The translations under genes and the position numbers were made by a program. Below the pieces are notes generated by a model. That model was not told the DNA's origin, ran no database searches, and was given only the letters and a program-made list of their open reading frames with translations. Shown here in pieces: positions 55,903 to 63,632 of a stretch of DNA of 63,632 nucleotides (position 1 is the stretch's first letter; the number at the start of each line of letters is the position of its first letter). Location: positions 1 through 63,632 of the forward strand of contig JADFLR010000024.1 of NCBI GenBank assembly GCA_022564295.1, in the 5' to 3' direction. The stretch is from Bacteroidota bacterium. Its GTDB lineage: Bacteria; Bacteroidota; Ignavibacteria; Ignavibacteriales; Ignavibacteriaceae.

Positions 55903-58050
55903 ATGCAGAAATTAATACGCTCTTTATTTATTGCCATTCTATTTACTGGAAGCTTGCTTGCCCAAAAGAATTTTACTTTAGAGCATGTAATACTTGAAAG
56001 TGCATCACTTTCACCCAAGCGTTTATCTCAGTTACAATGGATTCCGGATGCTGATGCTTTTACTCATGTAATAACAGTTGATGAAGAAACAAATCTTATT
56101 AAAGAAAATGCTTCAACTGAAGGAAAAGAACTATTATTAACATTAACAAAGTTAAACGACGCACTCACTGGTAAAAGTTTAAATACACTTGAATCGTTTC
56201 CAATTTTTAAATGGACAAACAACAGCACAATTCGATTTTGGGATTATTTATCACTTGTTGAATATAATTTAAACAACAACTCTCTGACTATCATAAATGA
56301 TATTGCAAATAACGGTACCAATGCTGATTTTAATGACCCGCACAAAATCGCTTATACTATTGATAACAATCTTTACATCGCTATAAATTCCAAACAAATA
56401 CAAATTACCAAGGATGAAAACATAGAAATAGTAAATGGACAATTTGTGCACAGGCATGAATTTGGAATTGAGAAAGGAACTTTTTGGTCGCCCAAAAACA
56501 ATTACCTCGCATTTTACAGAAAAGATGAATCTATGGTAACTGATTATCCGGTTATTGATATTTCTAAAAAACCCGCCGTAATTGAAAACATAAAGTATCC
56601 AATGGCAGGAATGACTAGCGAAGAAGTTACTGTTGGTGTTTATGATCTTAAGACAGGTAAAACTATCTGGCTCAAAACAGGCGAACCAAAGGATCATTAT
56701 TTACCGGGGGTTACTTGGAGCCCGGATGAAAGATACATTTATATTGCTGAATTGAACAGGGATCAGAATCATATGAATCTGACAAAGTACAATGCGCGGA
56801 CCGGTGAAATGATAAAAATATTATTTGAAGAAACGAGCGATAAATATGTTGAACCAATGAACGGATTGATCTTTTTTGAAGACGAGCCGGATATGTTTAT
56901 ATGGACAACGCGCAAAGATGGCTGGAATCATTTTTATTTATATGATGCGCAGGGTGCAAAAATTAAGCAACTAACAAAGGGAGAATGGGAAGTAACCGGG
57001 TTTGATGGATTAAGCACTGTTGGTTACAACATTTTTTTTGCTGCTGCCGAACAAAGTCCAACAGAAAGTCATTATTACAAAGTTGATTTCGACAGATATG
57101 AAATGAAACGGATTACAAATGGAACCGGAACTCACAAAGTTATTAGAAATGAAAAAGGTACGATGTTTCTTGATGTATTTACAAATGTTGATGTCCCTTA
57201 TGAAGTAAGTGTTCTCGATAAAGATGGAGAGAAATTAAGAACTGTATTCTTAGCGCCAAATCCATTTGAAGGTTTTAATACAGGGAAGACAGAAATCTTT
57301 ACATTAAAAAGCAGCGATGGTTCTGATCTTTACTGCAGAACAATATTTCCACCCGGTTTTGATGAAAATAAAAAGTATCCTGTTCTTGTTTATGTCTACG
57401 GAGGACCTCATATACAGCGTATAACTAATAGCTGGTTAGGCGGTACGAAGGAAATTTTATGGCTGAATTACATGGCACAAAACGGATACATTGTTTTCAC
57501 ATTAGATAATCGGGGCTCGTCAAATCGTGGATTGGAATTTGAGCAGAAGATATTCAGGCAATTAGGCACTGTTGAAATCGAAGACCAAATGGTTGGTGTT
57601 AATTACTTAAAATCTCTCTCTTATGTTGATACAACTAGCATGGGTGTATTTGGATGGAGTTATGGCGGTTTTATGACCACAAGCTTAATGACACGAAAAC
57701 CTGATGTATTCAAAGTTGGTGTTGCAGGAGGAACAGTTATCGATTGGCAATATTACGAAGTAATGTACACGGAAAGATATATGGATTCACCGCAGCAAAA
57801 TCCGGAAGGATACAAGGAAGCAAACCTGCTTAATTATGTAAATGATCTGAAAGGTAAATTGCTGCAGGTTCATGGTACTTCCGATCCTACTGTTGTTTGG
57901 CAGCATACATTAATGTTTATACAAAAAGCAACGCAGCTTGGAATTGATATAGATTATTTTCCATACGTAGGACATAAACACGGTGTTAAAGGAAAAGACC
58001 GTTTTCATCTTTACCAGAAAATAACGAATTATTTTAATGATAATCTTTAA
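55903..58050 (+). CDS. Secreted prolyl oligopeptidase-family peptidase (DPP IV-like, S9)
   Basis: 715 residues with signal peptide (MQKLIRSLFIAILFTGSLLAQ). The N-terminal beta-propeller (DPPIV_N type, WSPDERYIYIAELNRDQNH, MFIWTTRKDGWNHFYLYD) is followed by the catalytic domain: VYGGPHIQ, nucleophile Ser586 in GWSYGGFM, Asp661 in GTSDPTVVW and His691 in GHKHG. It removes X-Pro dipeptides in known relatives, probably in the periplasm. It is the last gene before the cassette array. Confidence 0.94.
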   Translation: MQKLIRSLFIAILFTGSLLAQKNFTLEHVILESASLSPKRLSQLQWIPDADAFTHVITVDEETNLIKENASTEGKELLLTLTKLNDALTGKSLNTLESFPIFKWTNNSTIRFWDYLSLVEYNLNNNSLTIINDIANNGTNADFNDPHKIAYTIDNNLYIAINSKQIQITKDENIEIVNGQFVHRHEFGIEKGTFWSPKNNYLAFYRKDESMVTDYPVIDISKKPAVIENIKYPMAGMTSEEVTVGVYDLKTGKTIWLKTGEPKDHYLPGVTWSPDERYIYIAELNRDQNHMNLTKYNARTGEMIKILFEETSDKYVEPMNGLIFFEDEPDMFIWTTRKDGWNHFYLYDAQGAKIKQLTKGEWEVTGFDGLSTVGYNIFFAAAEQSPTESHYYKVDFDRYEMKRITNGTGTHKVIRNEKGTMFLDVFTNVDVPYEVSVLDKDGEKLRTVFLAPNPFEGFNTGKTEIFTLKSSDGSDLYCRTIFPPGFDENKKYPVLVYVYGGPHIQRITNSWLGGTKEILWLNYMAQNGYIVFTLDNRGSSNRGLEFEQKIFRQLGTVEIEDQMVGVNYLKSLSYVDTTSMGVFGWSYGGFMTTSLMTRKPDVFKVGVAGGTVIDWQYYEVMYTERYMDSPQQNPEGYKEANLLNYVNDLKGKLLQVHGTSDPTVVWQHTLMFIQKATQLGIDIDYFPYVGHKHGVKGKDRFHLYQKITNYFNDNL

Positions 58051-58152
58051 AAGGGTCTGGTGTGTCTTGAATTGGTCAATCCTTTAGGACAAAGGTTATT
58101 AGGAACAGTAAAAATTTTTTGGCTTTAGCCATAACTTGAAAGAATGAAGCAG

Positions 58153-58210
58153 TACTAACGCAAAAATTAGTCGCCGCCGGAGGGCAGGTCGCTTGCACGC
58201 GGGGTTAGAC
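58153..58210 (-). other. attC-like site 1 (distal end of cassette array)
   Basis: Between TACTAAC (58153-58159) and GTTAGAC (58204-58210); 58 bases, the size of the shortest classical attC sites. Read on the minus strand it is GTCTAAC, then GCGTGCAAGCGACC, and on to GCGTTAGTA. Arms pair imperfectly (CTAAC and CGAC/GTCG blocks). It lies after a duplicated hydrolase tail. Confidence 0.6.
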
Positions 58211-58281
58211 GCTCGCTGTTTGTCTACTGCGAAATAAATGCTATAACCTCTTTCTACCAATGCAGTTCTGCAGCAACCGGC
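58174..58281 (-). repeat. Duplicated tail of the hydrolase cassette
   Basis: Copies 58966-59072, the last roughly 19 codons of the alpha/beta hydrolase gene plus the proximal part of its attC, with about six differences in 107 bases. Same orientation, about 790 bases away. The copy ends abruptly at GCAGCAACCGGC, where the next site's hairpin begins. Confidence 0.85.
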
Positions 58282-58317
58282 GGGCATGATCCAGTCGCGA
58301 TGATGCCCTGGTTAGGT
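58281..58317 (-). other. attC-like site 2 (truncated)
   Basis: Minus strand: ACCTAAC directly after the stop of the 58327 gene, then a hairpin GGGCATCATC/GATCATGCCC. The distal arm is missing, cut off by the duplicated hydrolase tail, so recombination or deletion has removed half the site. Confidence 0.5.
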
Positions 58318-58326
58318 TTCTTATTT

Positions 58327-58851
58327 TCAAAATTTAAAAATATTCTCTTTGCTATAGACATTTGAGTATTTTTCGAACTCATCACAACCAATTACATTTA
58401 GATCTAAGTATTTAATAAAATCATATAATGTAGCATTTTTAAATAAACATATTATTGTTGCTTTTATAACTTCTTCCATATCTAAGGAACTGTATGGTTC
58501 ATCTAATGTATCAAGCCGTAAAACCGGGATTATAAGATCTACTTTTACAGTATCTCCAAAGTTAATATACATATCATCCCATCTTCTGGAAAAACCAATC
58601 TTTAAACCTAAAATATTGGCAATATTTCTATTACTAGATCCTCTTTCTGTTATTACGCTGTTCTCAGCACAGGTAAGAGACGTTTTTTTAGGAATACTAT
58701 AATTTAGAAAAAACACGTAAGTAGATTTACTTTCAATTATTCCATTTTCAGTAAATATTGGTTGTGATACAATAAAAACTATTTCCTGAGTTACAATAAT
58801 ATTACCACTTGTGAGTGGAATTAATAATAAAACTAAAATTAATTTCTTCAT
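58327..58851 (-). CDS. Cassette gene: secreted hypothetical protein (174 aa)
   Basis: Signal peptide MKKLILVLLLIPLTSGNIIV then a Ser/Asn/Ile-rich body with three cysteines (CAEN, CLFK, CDEF). Not recognised. AAGAGGAC precedes the ATG at 58851. The start is 23 bases from the core GTTAGGT of the preceding attC (58874-58880) and the stop is ten bases from the next ACCTAAC, so gene and site form one cassette. Confidence 0.75.
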   Translation of the reverse strand: MKKLILVLLLIPLTSGNIIVTQEIVFIVSQPIFTENGIIESKSTYVFFLNYSIPKKTSLTCAENSVITERGSSNRNIANILGLKIGFSRRWDDMYINFGDTVKVDLIIPVLRLDTLDEPYSSLDMEEVIKATIICLFKNATLYDFIKYLDLNVIGCDEFEKYSNVYSKENIFKF

Positions 58852-58873
58852 AATAAAGTCCTCTTAAAATGAA

Positions 58874-59001
58874 ACCTAACGGGGGCGTTAAGTGCCCTCC
58901 GATTCTTAAAAGACTCGACTATTTTATTATAGCCAGCATTTCGCAATTTTCGCGCCGCTTACCCTCCGCCGGAGGCAGGTCGCTTGCACGCTGGGTTAGA
59001 C
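58874..59001 (-). other. attC-like site 3
   Basis: 128 bases from ACCTAAC (plus strand 58874-58880) to GTTAGAC (58995-59001). Inner arms CTAACGGGGGCGTTAAG... and the inverse CTAACCCAGCGTGCAAG... pair with bulges through CCTCCG. It starts 14 bases after the hydrolase stop. Confidence 0.75.
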
Positions 59002-59014
59002 ATTCGCTGTTGGT

Positions 59015-59809
59015 CTACTGCGAAATAAATGCTATAACCTCTTTCCACCAATGCAGTTCTGCAGCAACCGGCACTTCGTTATGTCTTACATCTTCAAACA
59101 TCCACAGTCTCTTGTTTGCGGTTATTGACTCATACAACCTTTTACCATGCTGCACTGGAACAACCTCATCGTTTTCGGCAAGAACGACAGCAATATTTCC
59201 ATCAAATCTTTGAAGGTCATCAACACTGTTGTATTTGTCGAGAACTAACCAACGTGCTGGAAGGAACCAATAGTGTGTTTGAGCAAGATTGGGTAGCGAA
59301 TCCCAGGCCAGAAACAGAATCACTCCTTTAATGGGGATATCAGATTTACTGAGAGCACTGCAAACGACCCCACTTCCAAGAGATTCGCCCCATAGGTACA
59401 GAGGCTCCCCAAACTCCTGATAGGCAATCCTTATGGTTTCGAGCGCATCCTTTACCAATACATCCTCACTGGGTTGTCCGGACCGGCCTCCATAGCCAGG
59501 ATATTCAGCTAAAATAACCCGCATATTTTGAATAGATAGCGCTTTGACATAGAAGCTGCGATTATAAGCTGCGCCTGCATTGCCATGAAATACTATGACG
59601 GTTCCCTTTGCGTCAGGCAGTTTTGCTTGACTGATAAATCCTTGAAATACTTCAAAAGAAGGCCAATAGATTAAGCCTTCATTGATTGCACGCTGCTCAG
59701 CCAACTTTATTTGATACGGCATATAGAGTAATTTCCGCTGAAATATAAAAACTATTGCGCACAAGGCTGCATATCCCAGTAAGATAGATATCAATATTTT
59801 CCAAATCAT
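59015..59809 (-). CDS. Cassette gene: membrane-anchored alpha/beta hydrolase
   Basis: From ATG 59809: N-terminal anchor (WKILISILLGYAALCAIVFIF), QRKLLYMP, oxyanion loop VIVFHGNAGAA, YPGYGGRSGQPSE, nucleophile elbow LWGESLGSG, acid in LAENDEVVP, and His in VRHNEVPV: a complete triad of the serine aminopeptidase/BEM46-like group. A GTG at 59836 (adds nine residues) is an alternative, since other cassettes start about 20 bases from the core. It is visibly more G+C-rich than its neighbours, which fits acquisition from elsewhere. Substrate unknown. Confidence 0.88.
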   Translation of the reverse strand: MIWKILISILLGYAALCAIVFIFQRKLLYMPYQIKLAEQRAINEGLIYWPSFEVFQGFISQAKLPDAKGTVIVFHGNAGAAYNRSFYVKALSIQNMRVILAEYPGYGGRSGQPSEDVLVKDALETIRIAYQEFGEPLYLWGESLGSGVVCSALSKSDIPIKGVILFLAWDSLPNLAQTHYWFLPARWLVLDKYNSVDDLQRFDGNIAVVLAENDEVVPVQHGKRLYESITANKRLWMFEDVRHNEVPVAAELHWWKEVIAFISQ

Positions 59810-59857
59810 TTGAATAACAATTCTTTTCGATTGCACATGAGTAAAAATTTAATTAAC

Positions 59858-60045
59858 GTTTAACGGTGTTACCGCTAAGCCGCCACCCAGAACAGCAATG
59901 ACGAATAGTTGCAACCAATTTTTATATATAAAAATACTTCCTTAAACAATCTGCCATTAAAAGTGACTCAGTTTTGCAAACGCAACTTTATAATTACATA
60001 AATGCCGCACTAAAAACGCTGACCGTGTTGAGCGGCTGGTTATAC
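59858..60045 (-). other. attC-like site 4
   Basis: 188 bases between GTTTAAC (59858-59864) and GTTATAC (60039-60045). Arms ...ACCGCTAAGCCGCC and GCGGCTGGTTAT pair imperfectly; the long centre is AT-rich. It starts 14 bases after the stop of the 60059 gene. Confidence 0.7.
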
Positions 60046-60058
60046 GTATTTTTATTAA

Positions 60059-60631
60059 CTAAAAATAAATTTGAATGTTTTTGTTTAATTTAATTATTGT
60101 ATCCGCAAAATGAACAAAAAACTCCGTTAGGTTTCCATTTATTCTCTTTACTTTTTCTACATCTATTATAAATTCGATTCTTCTTCCATTCATCTTATAT
60201 CTAAATTTCCACCAACATTTTTTGGGCTTTACAAAATGTGTAAAACAAAAAACTTTCCCCATCGGATATAGTAAAGATTCTCCCTCATAGTCAGAAATTA
60301 ATTTATCGGGGTAATCTCTAAAATCTTCTAAGTAAGAATAACCATAAAAGACAGAATAATCGTAAAGCAAATCCCAAATATTAATAGAAGCACCAGAATC
60401 TTTAATATCAAAGGAATACCATTTGGATAAAAAACCACTTTTATCTTCTTGATATTTCTTTAATAATAACTCATACATCAACTCATCCTTTTCTTCTGTT
60501 TCTTTATGACCTTGTATCATACTTGAGACGCGCCACGAAGCATCTTTATCTTTTGTTGCTTCTTCACGAAGTTCGTTATACTTATCACTTGTTAGAAAAA
60601 CTGGTAATTTATCAATTATGAAATATGACAT
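60059..60631 (-). CDS. Cassette gene: soluble hypothetical protein (190 aa)
   Basis: Not recognised. No signal or membrane segment; acidic first half with many Tyr/Asp, then a basic aromatic second half (KPKKCWWKFRYKMNGRRIEFIIDVEKV). It begins five bases after the DUF3761-like gene's stop and shares its cassette, so the pair probably acts together. Confidence 0.72.
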   Translation of the reverse strand: MSYFIIDKLPVFLTSDKYNELREEATKDKDASWRVSSMIQGHKETEEKDELMYELLLKKYQEDKSGFLSKWYSFDIKDSGASINIWDLLYDYSVFYGYSYLEDFRDYPDKLISDYEGESLLYPMGKVFCFTHFVKPKKCWWKFRYKMNGRRIEFIIDVEKVKRINGNLTEFFVHFADTIIKLNKNIQIYF

Positions 60632-60635
60632 AAAC

Positions 60636-61226
60636 TTAATTTTTATTGTTATGGGATGTAAAAATTGATGATAAAATTTTCCAAATAAAATAAAGCGCTG
60701 TTATAATTATCGTTAAAACAAAAGCTATAATTGAAAAGATACTATATACTAGAAAAGATATTGTGTTTATAGAATACAAAATTAAAGTAAATCCATAATA
60801 ACGTTGAAATAAAGCAGGCAATAATAGAATTGCGAATGATATTTTAGATAAATCAAAGAAGGATTCTTGATTGCTATAATGCATTCCAACTTTAATATCC
60901 TTGTATAACCATTCTTTTACCCCTCCGTGATGAGAACAGGTACCTCTTCCAGTTGAATAGGAATGCCATCCATCATAACAAATTGCGCCGACCCTAACTT
61001 TTTCATAAATGGGATGATTACCTTCTTTATATTCAAGAAAACCTTTAAATAATGTTACAAAAGAAAAGAGTATTAATATCGCAATTAAAAAATTAATTGC
61101 CTTTTTATAAAATGGTTTTATTTTGGAAGAATTTAGACTCCTTTTATTATCAATTTTAGAAATTACTTTTTTATAAATAGATTCAACTTTCTTTGAATAC
61201 TTTTCTAAAGAATCTAAACTAATCAT
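60636..61226 (-). CDS. Cassette gene: membrane protein with DUF3761-like motif
   Basis: 196 residues. A helix at about 44-66, then an outside loop with GAICYDGWHSYSTGRGTCSH followed by HGGVKEW, very like the DUF3761 signature (C-x-DG-x-S-x-S ... GTCSHHGGV-x-W), then two or more helices (about 125-185). The two Cys and two His could bind metal or form a disulphide. The start is 17 bases from the core of site 5. Confidence 0.78.
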   Translation of the reverse strand: MISLDSLEKYSKKVESIYKKVISKIDNKRSLNSSKIKPFYKKAINFLIAILILFSFVTLFKGFLEYKEGNHPIYEKVRVGAICYDGWHSYSTGRGTCSHHGGVKEWLYKDIKVGMHYSNQESFFDLSKISFAILLLPALFQRYYGFTLILYSINTISFLVYSIFSIIAFVLTIIITALYFIWKILSSIFTSHNNKN

Positions 61227-61243
61227 TTATTATATGACTAAAC

Positions 61244-61430
61244 GTATAATGGCGTTGTGCTTAAGCCGAAGCCCAATACAACAATTTCACTTTGTCAATA
61301 AACTTTTTATTTATAACAAACTTTCTTTTACAAGTAACGCTGAACAACAAAGCCGAAACGGAACTACAAACTTTCAAACTGTACAAATGCCAAATGCGAA
61401 AACGCTTTCGACTTGAGGCACTGGTTATGT
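61244..61430 (-). other. attC-like site 5
   Basis: 187 bases between GTATAAT (61244-61250) and GTTATGT (61424-61430). The outer arms pair well: ATAA-GTGCTTAAGCCGAAGC on one side, and the inverse of the other side reads ATAACC-GTGCCTCAAGTCGAAAGC. It begins nine bases after the protease stop. Confidence 0.75.
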
Positions 61431-61438
61431 GAATGCCA

Positions 61439-62209
61439 CTATTTAAATAAATCGAAAATATAATATGAAGGTGTTATGGCTGCCATCTTACCCCCCGTAT
61501 TATCACCATGAGTACCATGAACAATACCAATCATTATTGTTTTTCCAAAACTCAAGTACATGCCATTTTTCACTGAAATATAAACGCCTGAACCGCTACA
61601 GCCTTGAATACTTGGAACATTTAAATAATAAAAGTCACTAGCTGTATTAGTGTCAGCTCTTTTTTGTGTAATTAGTCCACTTGATCGATATCCTTTAAAT
61701 ATCAGTGGTGAAAAATGATTCATTTTCATATCAAGAACAGGGAATCCAAGAAATGTAATGTCTGCCGCTCTTTCGGGTAAATTTTCACCGTTATTTATTA
61801 AATTCGATGGGAAAGACCAGGTCTCTAATCTTTTTTTAATCTTCTCATTATGTGGTACTAGTTCAATAATTGAAATATCAGCAACTGAATGATCATCCCA
61901 TGTTAATTTATTGTCTTTTACAATCTGTATTAAATCTACAATATCCGGTTTATCATTATCTAACCTAAATACAATCTTTGCATTATTTTTAATCTTTTTT
62001 GCTATATGAGTAGCTGTAAGTAAATAAAAAGTATTCTGATGATTGACAATCGTTCCTGAACCAATGCTAGCCAATGAATCATTAATCTGTTGATGTAATA
62101 ATACTGTTATATTAGATATTTGTTCTTGATCCCAAATATCCCCTTCGACTTGACAAAGAATTGGGGAATTGATAACAATTATAAATAAAAACAATTTAAT
62201 TGATTTCAT
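61439..62209 (-). CDS. Cassette gene: secreted trypsin-like serine protease
   Basis: 256 residues with signal peptide (IKLFLFIIVINSPILCQ). Chymotrypsin-fold blocks: GSGTIVNHQNTFYLLTATHIA (His), DHSVADISIIEL (Asp), and VPSIQGCSGSGVYI (Ser in GCSGSG), so the triad appears complete. Related proteins are stress or defence proteases, but no PDZ domain is present. It overlaps the lipoprotein gene by 14 bases, so both are made from one transcript. Confidence 0.82.
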   Translation of the reverse strand: MKSIKLFLFIIVINSPILCQVEGDIWDQEQISNITVLLHQQINDSLASIGSGTIVNHQNTFYLLTATHIAKKIKNNAKIVFRLDNDKPDIVDLIQIVKDNKLTWDDHSVADISIIELVPHNEKIKKRLETWSFPSNLINNGENLPERAADITFLGFPVLDMKMNHFSPLIFKGYRSSGLITQKRADTNTASDFYYLNVPSIQGCSGSGVYISVKNGMYLSFGKTIMIGIVHGTHGDNTGGKMAAITPSYYIFDLFK

Positions 62210-62546
62210 TTTTATTTTTGTCTAAAAGAATAAAATACCCTGCTTCTTTTACAAACTTTCTAGTTGTTGGCAAATCAGTAACATTTTCAATCACTAAGCA
62301 GGATGAAATATTTTGACCAGTATTTGATAAAAAGTTTCGTTGCTTTTTCATCGATTGAAAATTTAATATTAAATAGCTTCCATCAATATTTTTAAACTTT
62401 GTATCAGCACGAGTAATGACATTTAATTCCCCAACAGTTGCTTTATTCTGACCAGCAATTAACTGAATTGATTCAACAATTTTGTGATCTTGTTTACAAG
62501 CAAAAACAACAACTAGTAAAACAACAAATAATAAAAGATTTTTCAT
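62196..62546 (-). CDS. Cassette gene: lipoprotein (116 aa)
   Basis: From ATG 62546: MKNLLLFVVLLVVVFACKQD is a lipoprotein signal with lipobox FAC. The mature part has no known domain; two lysine/asparagine-rich strands (KFKNIDGSYLILNFQS, KKQRNFLSN) and an acidic end. The 14-base overlap with the protease gene suggests that it escorts, inhibits or anchors the protease (inference). An upstream in-frame start at 62585 would destroy the lipobox position. Confidence 0.75.
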   Translation of the reverse strand: MKNLLLFVVLLVVVFACKQDHKIVESIQLIAGQNKATVGELNVITRADTKFKNIDGSYLILNFQSMKKQRNFLSNTGQNISSCLVIENVTDLPTTRKFVKEAGYFILLDKNKNEIN

Positions 62547-62569
62547 TAGACGCCTTTTAATGATTAGCA

Positions 62570-62798
62570 CATAACGACCTTGCAACTAATGCGCCGCCCA
62601 TAACTACAATGCAGCACATAAATGCAAACGCCAATAATTTAACAGCCGTTGCGTAATTTGGCGTCAGCCACGCAACGAGCTGTAACAATGATTATTTAAC
62701 TTATTTACGCTCAACAAAATGCTGAACTTGTTTATAAACTTTATAATACTCAAAACGAAAACATTGTTTGCGCGGTCGCTTTGAGTTGCTTGTTAGGC
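62570..62798 (-). other. attC-like site 6 (long)
   Basis: 229 bases between ACATAAC (62570-62576) and GTTAGGC (62792-62798). Outer arms TTGCAACTAATGCGCC and GCGCGGTCGCTTTGAGTTGC are imperfect inverses; an inner stem GTTGCGT/ACGCAAC closes part of the loop. The outer arms are nearly the same as in site 7. It starts four bases after the stop of the 62803 gene. Confidence 0.78.
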
Positions 62799-62802
62799 GA
62801 CT

Positions 62803-63324
62803 CTAGCGAGGTCCATCTGAATTCTTTACGAATCGTTCAATACTTCTTGTAAATATCACTCTCGATTTGACAACATTCGGCCCGGAATATGTTATTTCCA
62901 TCCCTCGAATGCCTGAGCTTGTCTGTTGTAAAAGGAATAAAGTTGGATGACCATCTCGATGAGTGATGTACCCCTTCACTGTGCCTAGTTGCACAAACTG
63001 TGCGAAAACCCTAGTTGTCTTTCCATTTGATTCCTCTATTCGTACTTCCCAAGGTTGGCCATCATCCCACATTAATTCACCTGATGAGGAACGTTCAACA
63101 TTTGCTAAGATGACAATTTTTTCTTGAATTCCGTTACCGTCAAGGTCATACATTGTGCTTTCACGATACTGCCAATGATTAGTTGAGTCCACGGCAGCGG
63201 GTAGTGACGGAAAGACAAGCGAAGTATCCGTTCCATCTGGGACAGACAATCCCTGCGATTGAACAGTAGAATGTAGAAGGAGAACAATTATACTAATTAG
63301 AAATTGTCGAATGTTGAGTTTCAT
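62803..63324 (-). CDS. Cassette gene: secreted hypothetical protein (173 aa)
   Basis: Signal peptide MKLNIRQFLISIIVLLLHSTVQSQ, then a soluble domain with YDLDGNGIQEKIVI (a D-x-D-x-D-G-like calcium or VCBS-type loop) and a beta-rich end. No family recognised. More G+C-rich than the flanks. Its start is 21 bases from core GTTAGGC of site 7. Confidence 0.75.
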   Translation of the reverse strand: MKLNIRQFLISIIVLLLHSTVQSQGLSVPDGTDTSLVFPSLPAAVDSTNHWQYRESTMYDLDGNGIQEKIVILANVERSSSGELMWDDGQPWEVRIEESNGKTTRVFAQFVQLGTVKGYITHRDGHPTLFLLQQTSSGIRGMEITYSGPNVVKSRVIFTRSIERFVKNSDGPR

Positions 63325-63344
63325 TTTATAATCTTTAGAGATTC

Positions 63345-63532
63345 GCCTAACGACCTTGCAACTAATGCGCCGCCAAAAACAACGATGATTTATTTACACA
63401 TAAATAATTATTTAATAAAAATATTTAACTGACTAATAAAGATTAATAACAATGCTACACAAACATAACAAAGCGAATAAATTAAGTAAACCCTGCACAA
63501 GTAGTGCGGTCGCTTTGAGTTGCTGGTTATAT
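63345..63532 (-). other. attC-like site 7
   Basis: 188 bases between GCCTAAC (63345-63351) and GTTATAT (63526-63532). Outer arms TTGCAACTAATGCGCCGCC and GCGGTCGCTTTGAGTTGC match those of site 6. The centre is AT-rich. Confidence 0.78.
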
Positions 63533-63543
63533 TTGCTTTTTTA

Positions 63544-63632
63544 TTATTGATAACCACTTTTCGTAGGTGGCAATTTTTTGTATTCAGGTTTTGATATAAT
63601 TATAGATATTATAAAATCCTTTAATTCCATTA
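63544..63632 (-). CDS. Partial cassette gene at the window edge
   Basis: The last 29 codons read MELKDFIISIIISKPEYKKL and end KSGYQQ-stop, 11 bases before site 7's core. The ATG at 63630 may be internal: the frame is open to the edge, so the true start probably lies outside. Confidence 0.5.
   Translation of the reverse strand, partial: MELKDFIISIIISKPEYKKLPPTKSGYQ

Follow-up and report, generated by a model that had tools for sequence, protein, structure and literature searches.

Length ranges quoted for the attC sites of integron gene cassettes end at 141-142 bases in passages of two published accounts (PMC7370490, PMC2727003). Among the described systems, the repeats of Vibrio chromosomal integrons share R and L arms, extrahelical G and T bases and an A/C-rich bottom strand (excerpts of PMC5371416 and PMC2727003) with the sites reported here, and show the same low predicted folding and similarity of length within a lineage, but they measure 120-129 bases as against 182 or about 217 here (excerpts of PMC5371416). 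Treponema integrons are alike in that intI is read toward the cassettes and differ in their sites, which an excerpt of PMC3607928 gives as 63-68 bases, with some of 115 or 132. The present analysis concerns a 63,632-base stretch of DNA (the window), which is one entire contig (C12) of the 4.07-Mb genome of an Ignavibacteriales bacterium, assembled in 59 contigs. Four attC-like sites at its right end and a family of like sites in the same order fall outside the range of about 55-142 bases, with spans of 181-224 bases in the window and 145-252 bases in the genome; that range is descriptive and not a mechanistic requirement. Unlike the Vibrio repeats, the Ignavibacteriales sites include a class with a modular inner hairpin. 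Loop segments matched to the arms are a further feature of the Ignavibacteriales sites, detected by a swap test run on them.

Complete integrons in Ignavibacteriae have already been published, found with IntegronFinder, and the passage on those of Chlorobi and Ignavibacteriae is silent on the length and structure of their sites (PMC9024848). The 11 taxon-specific attC models named in an excerpt of PMC8352920 include no Bacteroidota or Ignavibacteria. A literature search on integrons or attC sites in Melioribacter, Chlorobi, Bacteroidota or Ignavibacteria, and on unusually long attC sites, returned no such sites in titles and abstract openings, most subscription papers lying outside that search.

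attC-like sites at the right end of the window

With a probability of about 0.9, the region belongs to the cassette array of a chromosomal integron in an Ignavibacteriales bacterium and the four sites are attC sites. This reading is carried by their arms, bulges, strand placement, gene order and covariation, by the integrases beside the arrays of relatives and by the size classes, all of which are observed; actual recombination, and the strand used for it, we infer. The sites and the inner hairpin of the third are listed here with their scores in the covariance model described below.

59858..60045, + strand (bottom strand on +): attC site 1, 188 bases, inner arm stem degenerate; model 115.5 bits, training member
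61244..61430, + strand: attC site 2, 187 bases, arms with G and T bulges; model 148.3 bits, training member
62569..62798, + strand: attC site 3, 230 bases, long class with inner hairpin; model 79.6 bits, outside the training set
62643..62682, + strand: inner hairpin of site 3, CAGC-CGTTGCGT/ACGCAACG-A-GCTG
63345..63532, + strand: attC site 4, 188 bases, 3' arm end within the final 127 bases of the contig; model 126.5 bits, training member

The ends of the sites were counted in two ways, either from TAAC (TAAT in site 2) to GTTA or with the three outer bases of the 7-base R box added at either end. The first gives spans of 59861-60042 (182 bases), 61247-61427 (181), 62572-62795 (224) and 63348-63529 (182), and the second gives 188, 187, 230 and 188 bases, within a base of the 187-188 and 229 bases claimed in a preliminary description of this DNA, whose coordinates are equally accurate. 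That description had also placed the length in the central loop and assigned one site an inner stem of its own, and both points hold: the arms flank a centre of about 130 bases, and the stem lies at 62643-62682 in site 3. The 3' arm reads GCGG-T-CGCTTT-G-AGTTGC..GTTA and the 5' arm TAAC......GCAACT-AAAGCG-CCGC, and the + strand of the sites has an additional T and an additional G at a distance of six bases. The genes between which the sites lie are read on the - strand and terminate next to GTTA, which is the arrangement required by attC. A hairpin scanner written for the analysis, with permitted site lengths of 50-330 bases, gave three matches in 8.6 kb versus none in the reversed sequence. 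Its hairpin rule, which includes the G and T bulges, is passed by three of the four sites; 59861-60042 fails because its inner stem is degenerate, and site 1 nonetheless aligns with the remaining sites, its arms being inverted copies only in part. An Rfam scan of the window returned two tRNAs and nothing else, and a spacing-limited pattern for entire sites had no match.

Applied more widely, the scanner exceeded its reversed-sequence control in 31 loci (23 versus 8) and in 20 loci (44 versus 11); with the ends fixed to TAA and GTTA it gave 27 matches versus 1 in 20 loci of other Bacteroidota. Four of the 74 scanner sites (lengths 60, 97, 124 and 261) were set aside, and the counts below are based on the other 70. 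Alignment A1 comprises 38 short-class sites, namely 37 of the 40 scanner sites of 200 bases or less together with window site 1, which was missed by the scanner. Its arm helix has 20 pairs, of which 12 vary on both sides, and 98.4% of the 760 cells are standard, a figure partly built in because 37 of the 38 sites were chosen by the hairpin rule. The covariation score of the arms was 0.515, compared with 0.121 for shuffled and 0.05-0.11 for slid versions, the latter being 29-45% paired. Unconstrained RNAalifold returned the same arm helix and left the centre open, and at the base of the helix the spacer (columns 5-7) took the place of the R box in the pairing. On the bottom strand the extrahelical bases are G in 38 of 38 and T in 36 of 38 sites, 6 bases apart, where a spacing of 6-8 bases is given for attC in an excerpt of PMC2727003.

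Site sizes and gene arrangement were not selected for by the pairing rule of the scanner. An open reading frame (ORF) of at least 60 amino acids ends on the expected side, from 40 bases inside the site to 150 outside, in 63 of the 70 sites, on the wrong side only in none and on neither in seven. The median distance from stop codon to site is 11 bases, and neighbouring sites share one strand in 47 of 47 pairs.

Under the attC reading the + (bottom) strand would fold so that the two ends pair as R and L boxes with the G and T left extrahelical. An IntI-family tyrosine recombinase would bind this hairpin and cut at the R box, and the gene to the right of each site, read on the - strand, would move as the cassette. 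The centre of about 130 bases would be the variable terminal structure, outside the part read by the enzyme, with a length that is conserved in Ignavibacteriales apart from an optional extra hairpin of 35-37 bases. As no intI is present in this assembly, the enzyme acting on this array would have been supplied in the past or in trans.

The cassettes between the sites contain the following ORFs.

60059..60631, - strand: cassette ORF of 190 amino acids, no Pfam family at E 0.001; stop 16 bases before site 1
60636..61226, - strand: second ORF of the same cassette, 196 amino acids, weak Pfam matches to DUF3761 and Endotoxin_N, both below cut-offs
61439..62209, - strand: cassette ORF of 256 amino acids, no Pfam family at E 0.001; stop 11 bases before site 2
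62196..62585, - strand: ORF of the same cassette as 61439..62209, 129 amino acids, listed TTG start inside site 3
62803..63324, - strand: cassette ORF of 173 amino acids, one Pfam match below cut-off, taken as chance; stop 7 bases before site 3

To the left of site 1, a 99-base stretch is repeated at 95% identity (window 58183-58281 and 58974-59072). It joins the end of an abhydrolase gene (59015-59836) to part of an attC-like site of about 122 bases (58877-58998), which was recognised by eye and reported by neither scanner nor model. A cassette end thus seems to have been partly duplicated.

The site family in Ignavibacteriales and the integrases beside it

A lineage-specific covariance model, as proposed in the preliminary description, was built from the 38 short-class sites; since its 183 positions derive from these, the model (R1) favours lengths of about 182 bases. 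The phylum survey covered 198 genomes at E ≤1e-9 with 13 candidates scored per genome, and its counts are lower bounds. R1 matched in 19 of the 198 genomes: 17 of the 21 same-order genomes listed (the own genome included), two of the same class and none elsewhere. This distribution supports the long attC sites as a lineage-specific family of Ignavibacteriales, in line with what had been surmised from the window. The 18 genomes other than the own one hold at least 114 matches, of which 79 measure 179-187 bases, 18 measure 214-224 and one measures 150 or less; none of their handles gave an R1 training row, and some may be the species behind loci L028-L037. Eleven loci, from genomes titled Ignavibacteriales, Melioribacter, Stygiobacter electus, Bacteroidetes or BMS3Abin03, contain the exact 3' arm, and seven of them yielded entire sites; viral contigs gave no match to this arm. 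In 20 intI loci of other Bacteroidota, sites of 54-153 bases were found in 10, which shows that the scanner is not biased to long sites, and two sites of 188 and 191 bases were found in one class relative.

In the own genome, an R1 search at E ≤0.01 with 150 of 4973 candidates scored gave at least 35 matches. They lie on 12 contigs (C2, C8, C12, C13, C16, C17, C22, C29, C31, C35, C56 and C57), some singly, a pattern such as fragmented arrays or off-target movement of sites might leave. The final 127 bases of C12 (window 63506-63632) are the reverse complement of the end of C26 and the start of C8; being common to three contig ends, they indicate that the assembly graph branches there, with two different sites preceding the same cassette start.

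Of 146 genomes of the order, 55 have a match over the TIGR02249 cut-off, as do 105 of 395 genomes of the phylum. All four integrases tested beside such arrays score 402-432 bits against a cut-off of 265, and for one Ignavibacteriales IntI the best solved relative is IntI4 (2a3v; 311 residues, E 1.8e-84), the alignment running through the IntI-specific segment that Xer proteins lack. The sites of IntI4 itself are shorter than those of Ignavibacteriales. An integrase adapted to the long sites, which the preliminary description would expect for a family of constant size, is not supported: as judged on family scores and alignment, the integrases tested look ordinary, and nothing seen in them suggests a special fit. 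An enzyme that reads the arms and nothing else would have no need of one. In a Vibrio site, replacement of the 65-base loop shifted recombination 1.6- to 2.4-fold (excerpt of PMC2727003), so that loop length alone does not call for a specialised integrase.

The scanner places sites 3' of intI in 12 of 20 loci and the model adds L105; in most loci (13 of 20) intI is thus directed at the cassettes. An array on the 5' side of intI was considered as a rule and rejected, as it was found in two of the 20 loci (L100 and L082). L100 alone has convincing 5' sites by the scanner, three of the stretches scanned being shorter than 1.5 kb, and the few remaining single matches 5' of intI are at the level of the reversed control. 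At L082 (2450-7904) the model places sites 5' of intI, from 99 bits down, unlike at most loci of the order. A cassette beside intI in L109 (7236-8873) encodes a 545-amino-acid protein that by eye resembles a reverse transcriptase.

Several results weigh against the integron reading of the window. The own genome has no match over the TIGR02249 cut-off, all that appears there being 17 weaker Xer-like matches. The inspected array ends on C26 and C35 show no conspicuous integrase-like ORF; in a same-genus genome intI adjoins a gene resembling, by eye, a CBS-domain protein, and the two own copies of this gene have no integrase within 1.5 kb upstream. The array is one without integrase, as assembled, although the absence of intI from this assembly is not proof, because the assembly breaks within arrays. 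Seven of the 20 loci have no convincing site 3' of intI by scanner or model, two of them, L118 (1.1 kb) and L116 (2.2 kb), having been scanned with the scanner only. The R box consensus is RYYYAAC and GTTRRRY, and only three of the eight R boxes of the window match it in full (GTTTAAC, GCCTAAC and GTTAGGC), the others being GTATAAT, ACATAAC, GTTATAC, GTTATGT and GTTATAT. The predicted probability of the recombination-ready fold of the bottom strand has a median of 0.00065, with 20 of the 70 sites below 1e-5, while in other Bacteroidota sites the median is 0.017 and none of 27 falls below 1e-5. The bottom strand does not fold better than the top (higher in 40 of 70, p 0.89), and a bottom-strand preference by folding was accordingly discarded.

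Size classes, inner hairpin and arm-matched centres

By scanner and model the sites form two size peaks, a short class of about 182 bases and a long class of about 217 bases. The long class is the 182-base site plus a covarying hairpin of 35-37 bases: when the hairpin is subtracted from 18 long-class sites their mean is 182.3 bases, compared with 182.1 for the short class. These 18, of the 26 long-class sites, form alignment A3; six sites from the own genome and two from L110 were left out on account of a differing hairpin register or, in L023:2024, a missing 5' half of the inner stem, an exclusion that favours the pairing counts of the inner hairpin. In A3, own-genome sites not being counted, the inner hairpin has 12 pairs with 91.3% of 207 cells standard; eight pairs vary on both sides, a number reached by 16 of 500 shuffles, and the score is 0.597 versus 0.213 when shuffled. 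Inner stems of other sequences recur at the same place in other genomes. Centre structure beyond that of shuffled sequences (z < -2) was seen in 10 of 26 long-class and 0 of 40 short-class sites. Between loci the short-class centres have a median identity of 48%, and their lengths have a standard deviation of 3 bases.

The matches in the own genome, at least 35 in number, measure 145-252 bases, with 10 at 179-187 and 17 above 200, and some of the sites are enlarged by the small palindrome TCCGCCGCGGCGGA. The constant size proposed in the preliminary description therefore holds across the order in the form of two classes and fails as a single length: what is constant is a module of 182 bases with or without the hairpin, plus inserts up to 252 bases. 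The palindrome is perfect and stands at four places in the own genome (C31 2161, 3892, 4875 and 7475; L023), all inside attC sites of one array.

Other properties of the centre were considered as well. A role of the inner hairpin as a folding aid was rejected, since its removal from the 18 long-class sites left the predicted fold unchanged (higher when intact in 6 of 18, p 0.39). A promoter in the centre was likewise dismissed, neither a Bacteroidota-type box (16 of 70 versus 12.9 shuffled) nor a sigma-70 type (1 versus 2.0) being enriched. The motif AGTTTGTT is present on the gene strand in 13 of 70 centres, for example at A1 columns 95-116, versus 1.2 in single-base shuffles.

When the centre was replaced by its own shuffle the predicted fold probability rose in most sites (real higher in 12 of 70, p 2e-9), the competing pairing being that of each arm with the adjoining part of the centre. 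Swapping of arms was examined with 14 arm-type clusters and 5000 permutations and was repeated with a coarser grouping of 8. With 14 clusters, neither the pairing of the 5' arm with the first part of the centre nor that of the 3' arm with the last part was equalled (0 of 5000 each). In 10 and 11 of the 14 clusters, respectively, the arm bound its own centre segment more strongly than the segments belonging to other types, and the wrong-side controls gave 4710 and 4980 of 5000. With 8 groups the 5' arm remained at 0 of 5000 and the 3' arm was not significant (705 of 5000). Relative to shuffled segments, a match of the 5' arm at z < -2 was found in 23 of 40 short-class and 12 of 26 long-class sites and in none of 23 other Bacteroidota sites of at least 100 bases, 5 of which show the 3' arm match. 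The form of the predicted local hairpin varies between arm types. What these predictions show is an arm-specific matching, not one conserved second structure. The arm-matched centre may act as a brake, or it may go back to an early duplication of the arms.

As a brake, the long loop would offer each arm an alternative partner. In single-stranded DNA the 5' arm, together with the spacer GGCGTT, would pair with a segment some 40-60 bases further on, and the 3' arm with the stretch immediately preceding it. These short arm hairpins would form first, leaving the site unusable for the integrase until they are displaced. Such a built-in brake is a rather unlikely option. It is favoured by the preference of each arm for its own neighbouring segment, by the depression of the proper fold by real centres and by the restriction of the 5' arm match to family sites. 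It is opposed by the lack of a single conserved alternative helix, RNAalifold reporting none and the local fold differing by arm type, by the loss of the 3' arm result with 8 groups and by the 3' matches outside the family. A centre descended from duplicated arms would yield the same signal, and low folding is likewise reported for long Vibrio sites in an excerpt of PMC5371416, so that a brake need not be special. A selection of the loop to stay unfolded was rejected as a full account: short-class centres alone are slightly less structured than shuffled ones (median z +0.43, n=40), but together with the arms real centres lower the proper fold. The widest proposal is somewhat more doubtful still than the brake itself: an order-wide attC family would encode two competing folds with a fixed 182-base spacing and a modular hairpin, and the sequence of the site, not the integrase, would restrain cassette movement.

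Other accounts and implications

Each long site might instead consist of two short attC sites, tandem or nested, that were fused after loss of the gene between them. The arm-matching centre segments could in that case be faint copies of the opposite arm. However, when the same rule is applied inside the 70 sites, none of them contains a shorter hairpin complete with R boxes and stems; the rule is strict, as 70 sites with shuffled centres also give none. Shorter nested sites had been named beforehand in the preliminary description as the finding that would speak against long sites, and with none in 70 the long sites stand. Site lengths moreover agree across the order, which repeated independent fusions would not give, and fusion in this form is improbable. 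A single ancient fusion, preceding the divergence of the order, is a conceivable variant of this account. Equally improbable is a messenger element, in which the hairpin 3' of each cassette gene ends or protects the transcript and recombination is secondary or extinct: the position of the sites closely behind stop codons and the own genome without intI over the cut-off would suit it, but the kept G and T bulges and TAAC/GTTA ends fit recombination and not a transcript hairpin, and a terminator scan of 57500-63632 gave 4 hits versus 3.4 expected, none inside the four sites.

For the integron cassette array of Ignavibacteriales, the practical consequence is that common search settings may overlook sites of these two sizes. 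The size cap near 200 bases, which according to the preliminary description would make tools miss the largest site, may be a default of IntegronFinder, although the papers searched for it did not show it. Because this integrase-rich order (55 of 146 genomes) has sites of 182 and about 217 bases, too few of its cassettes may be counted, and arrays that lack an integrase may escape notice. With its length kept and its sequence half different, the family is natural material on the role of the variable terminal structure of attC.

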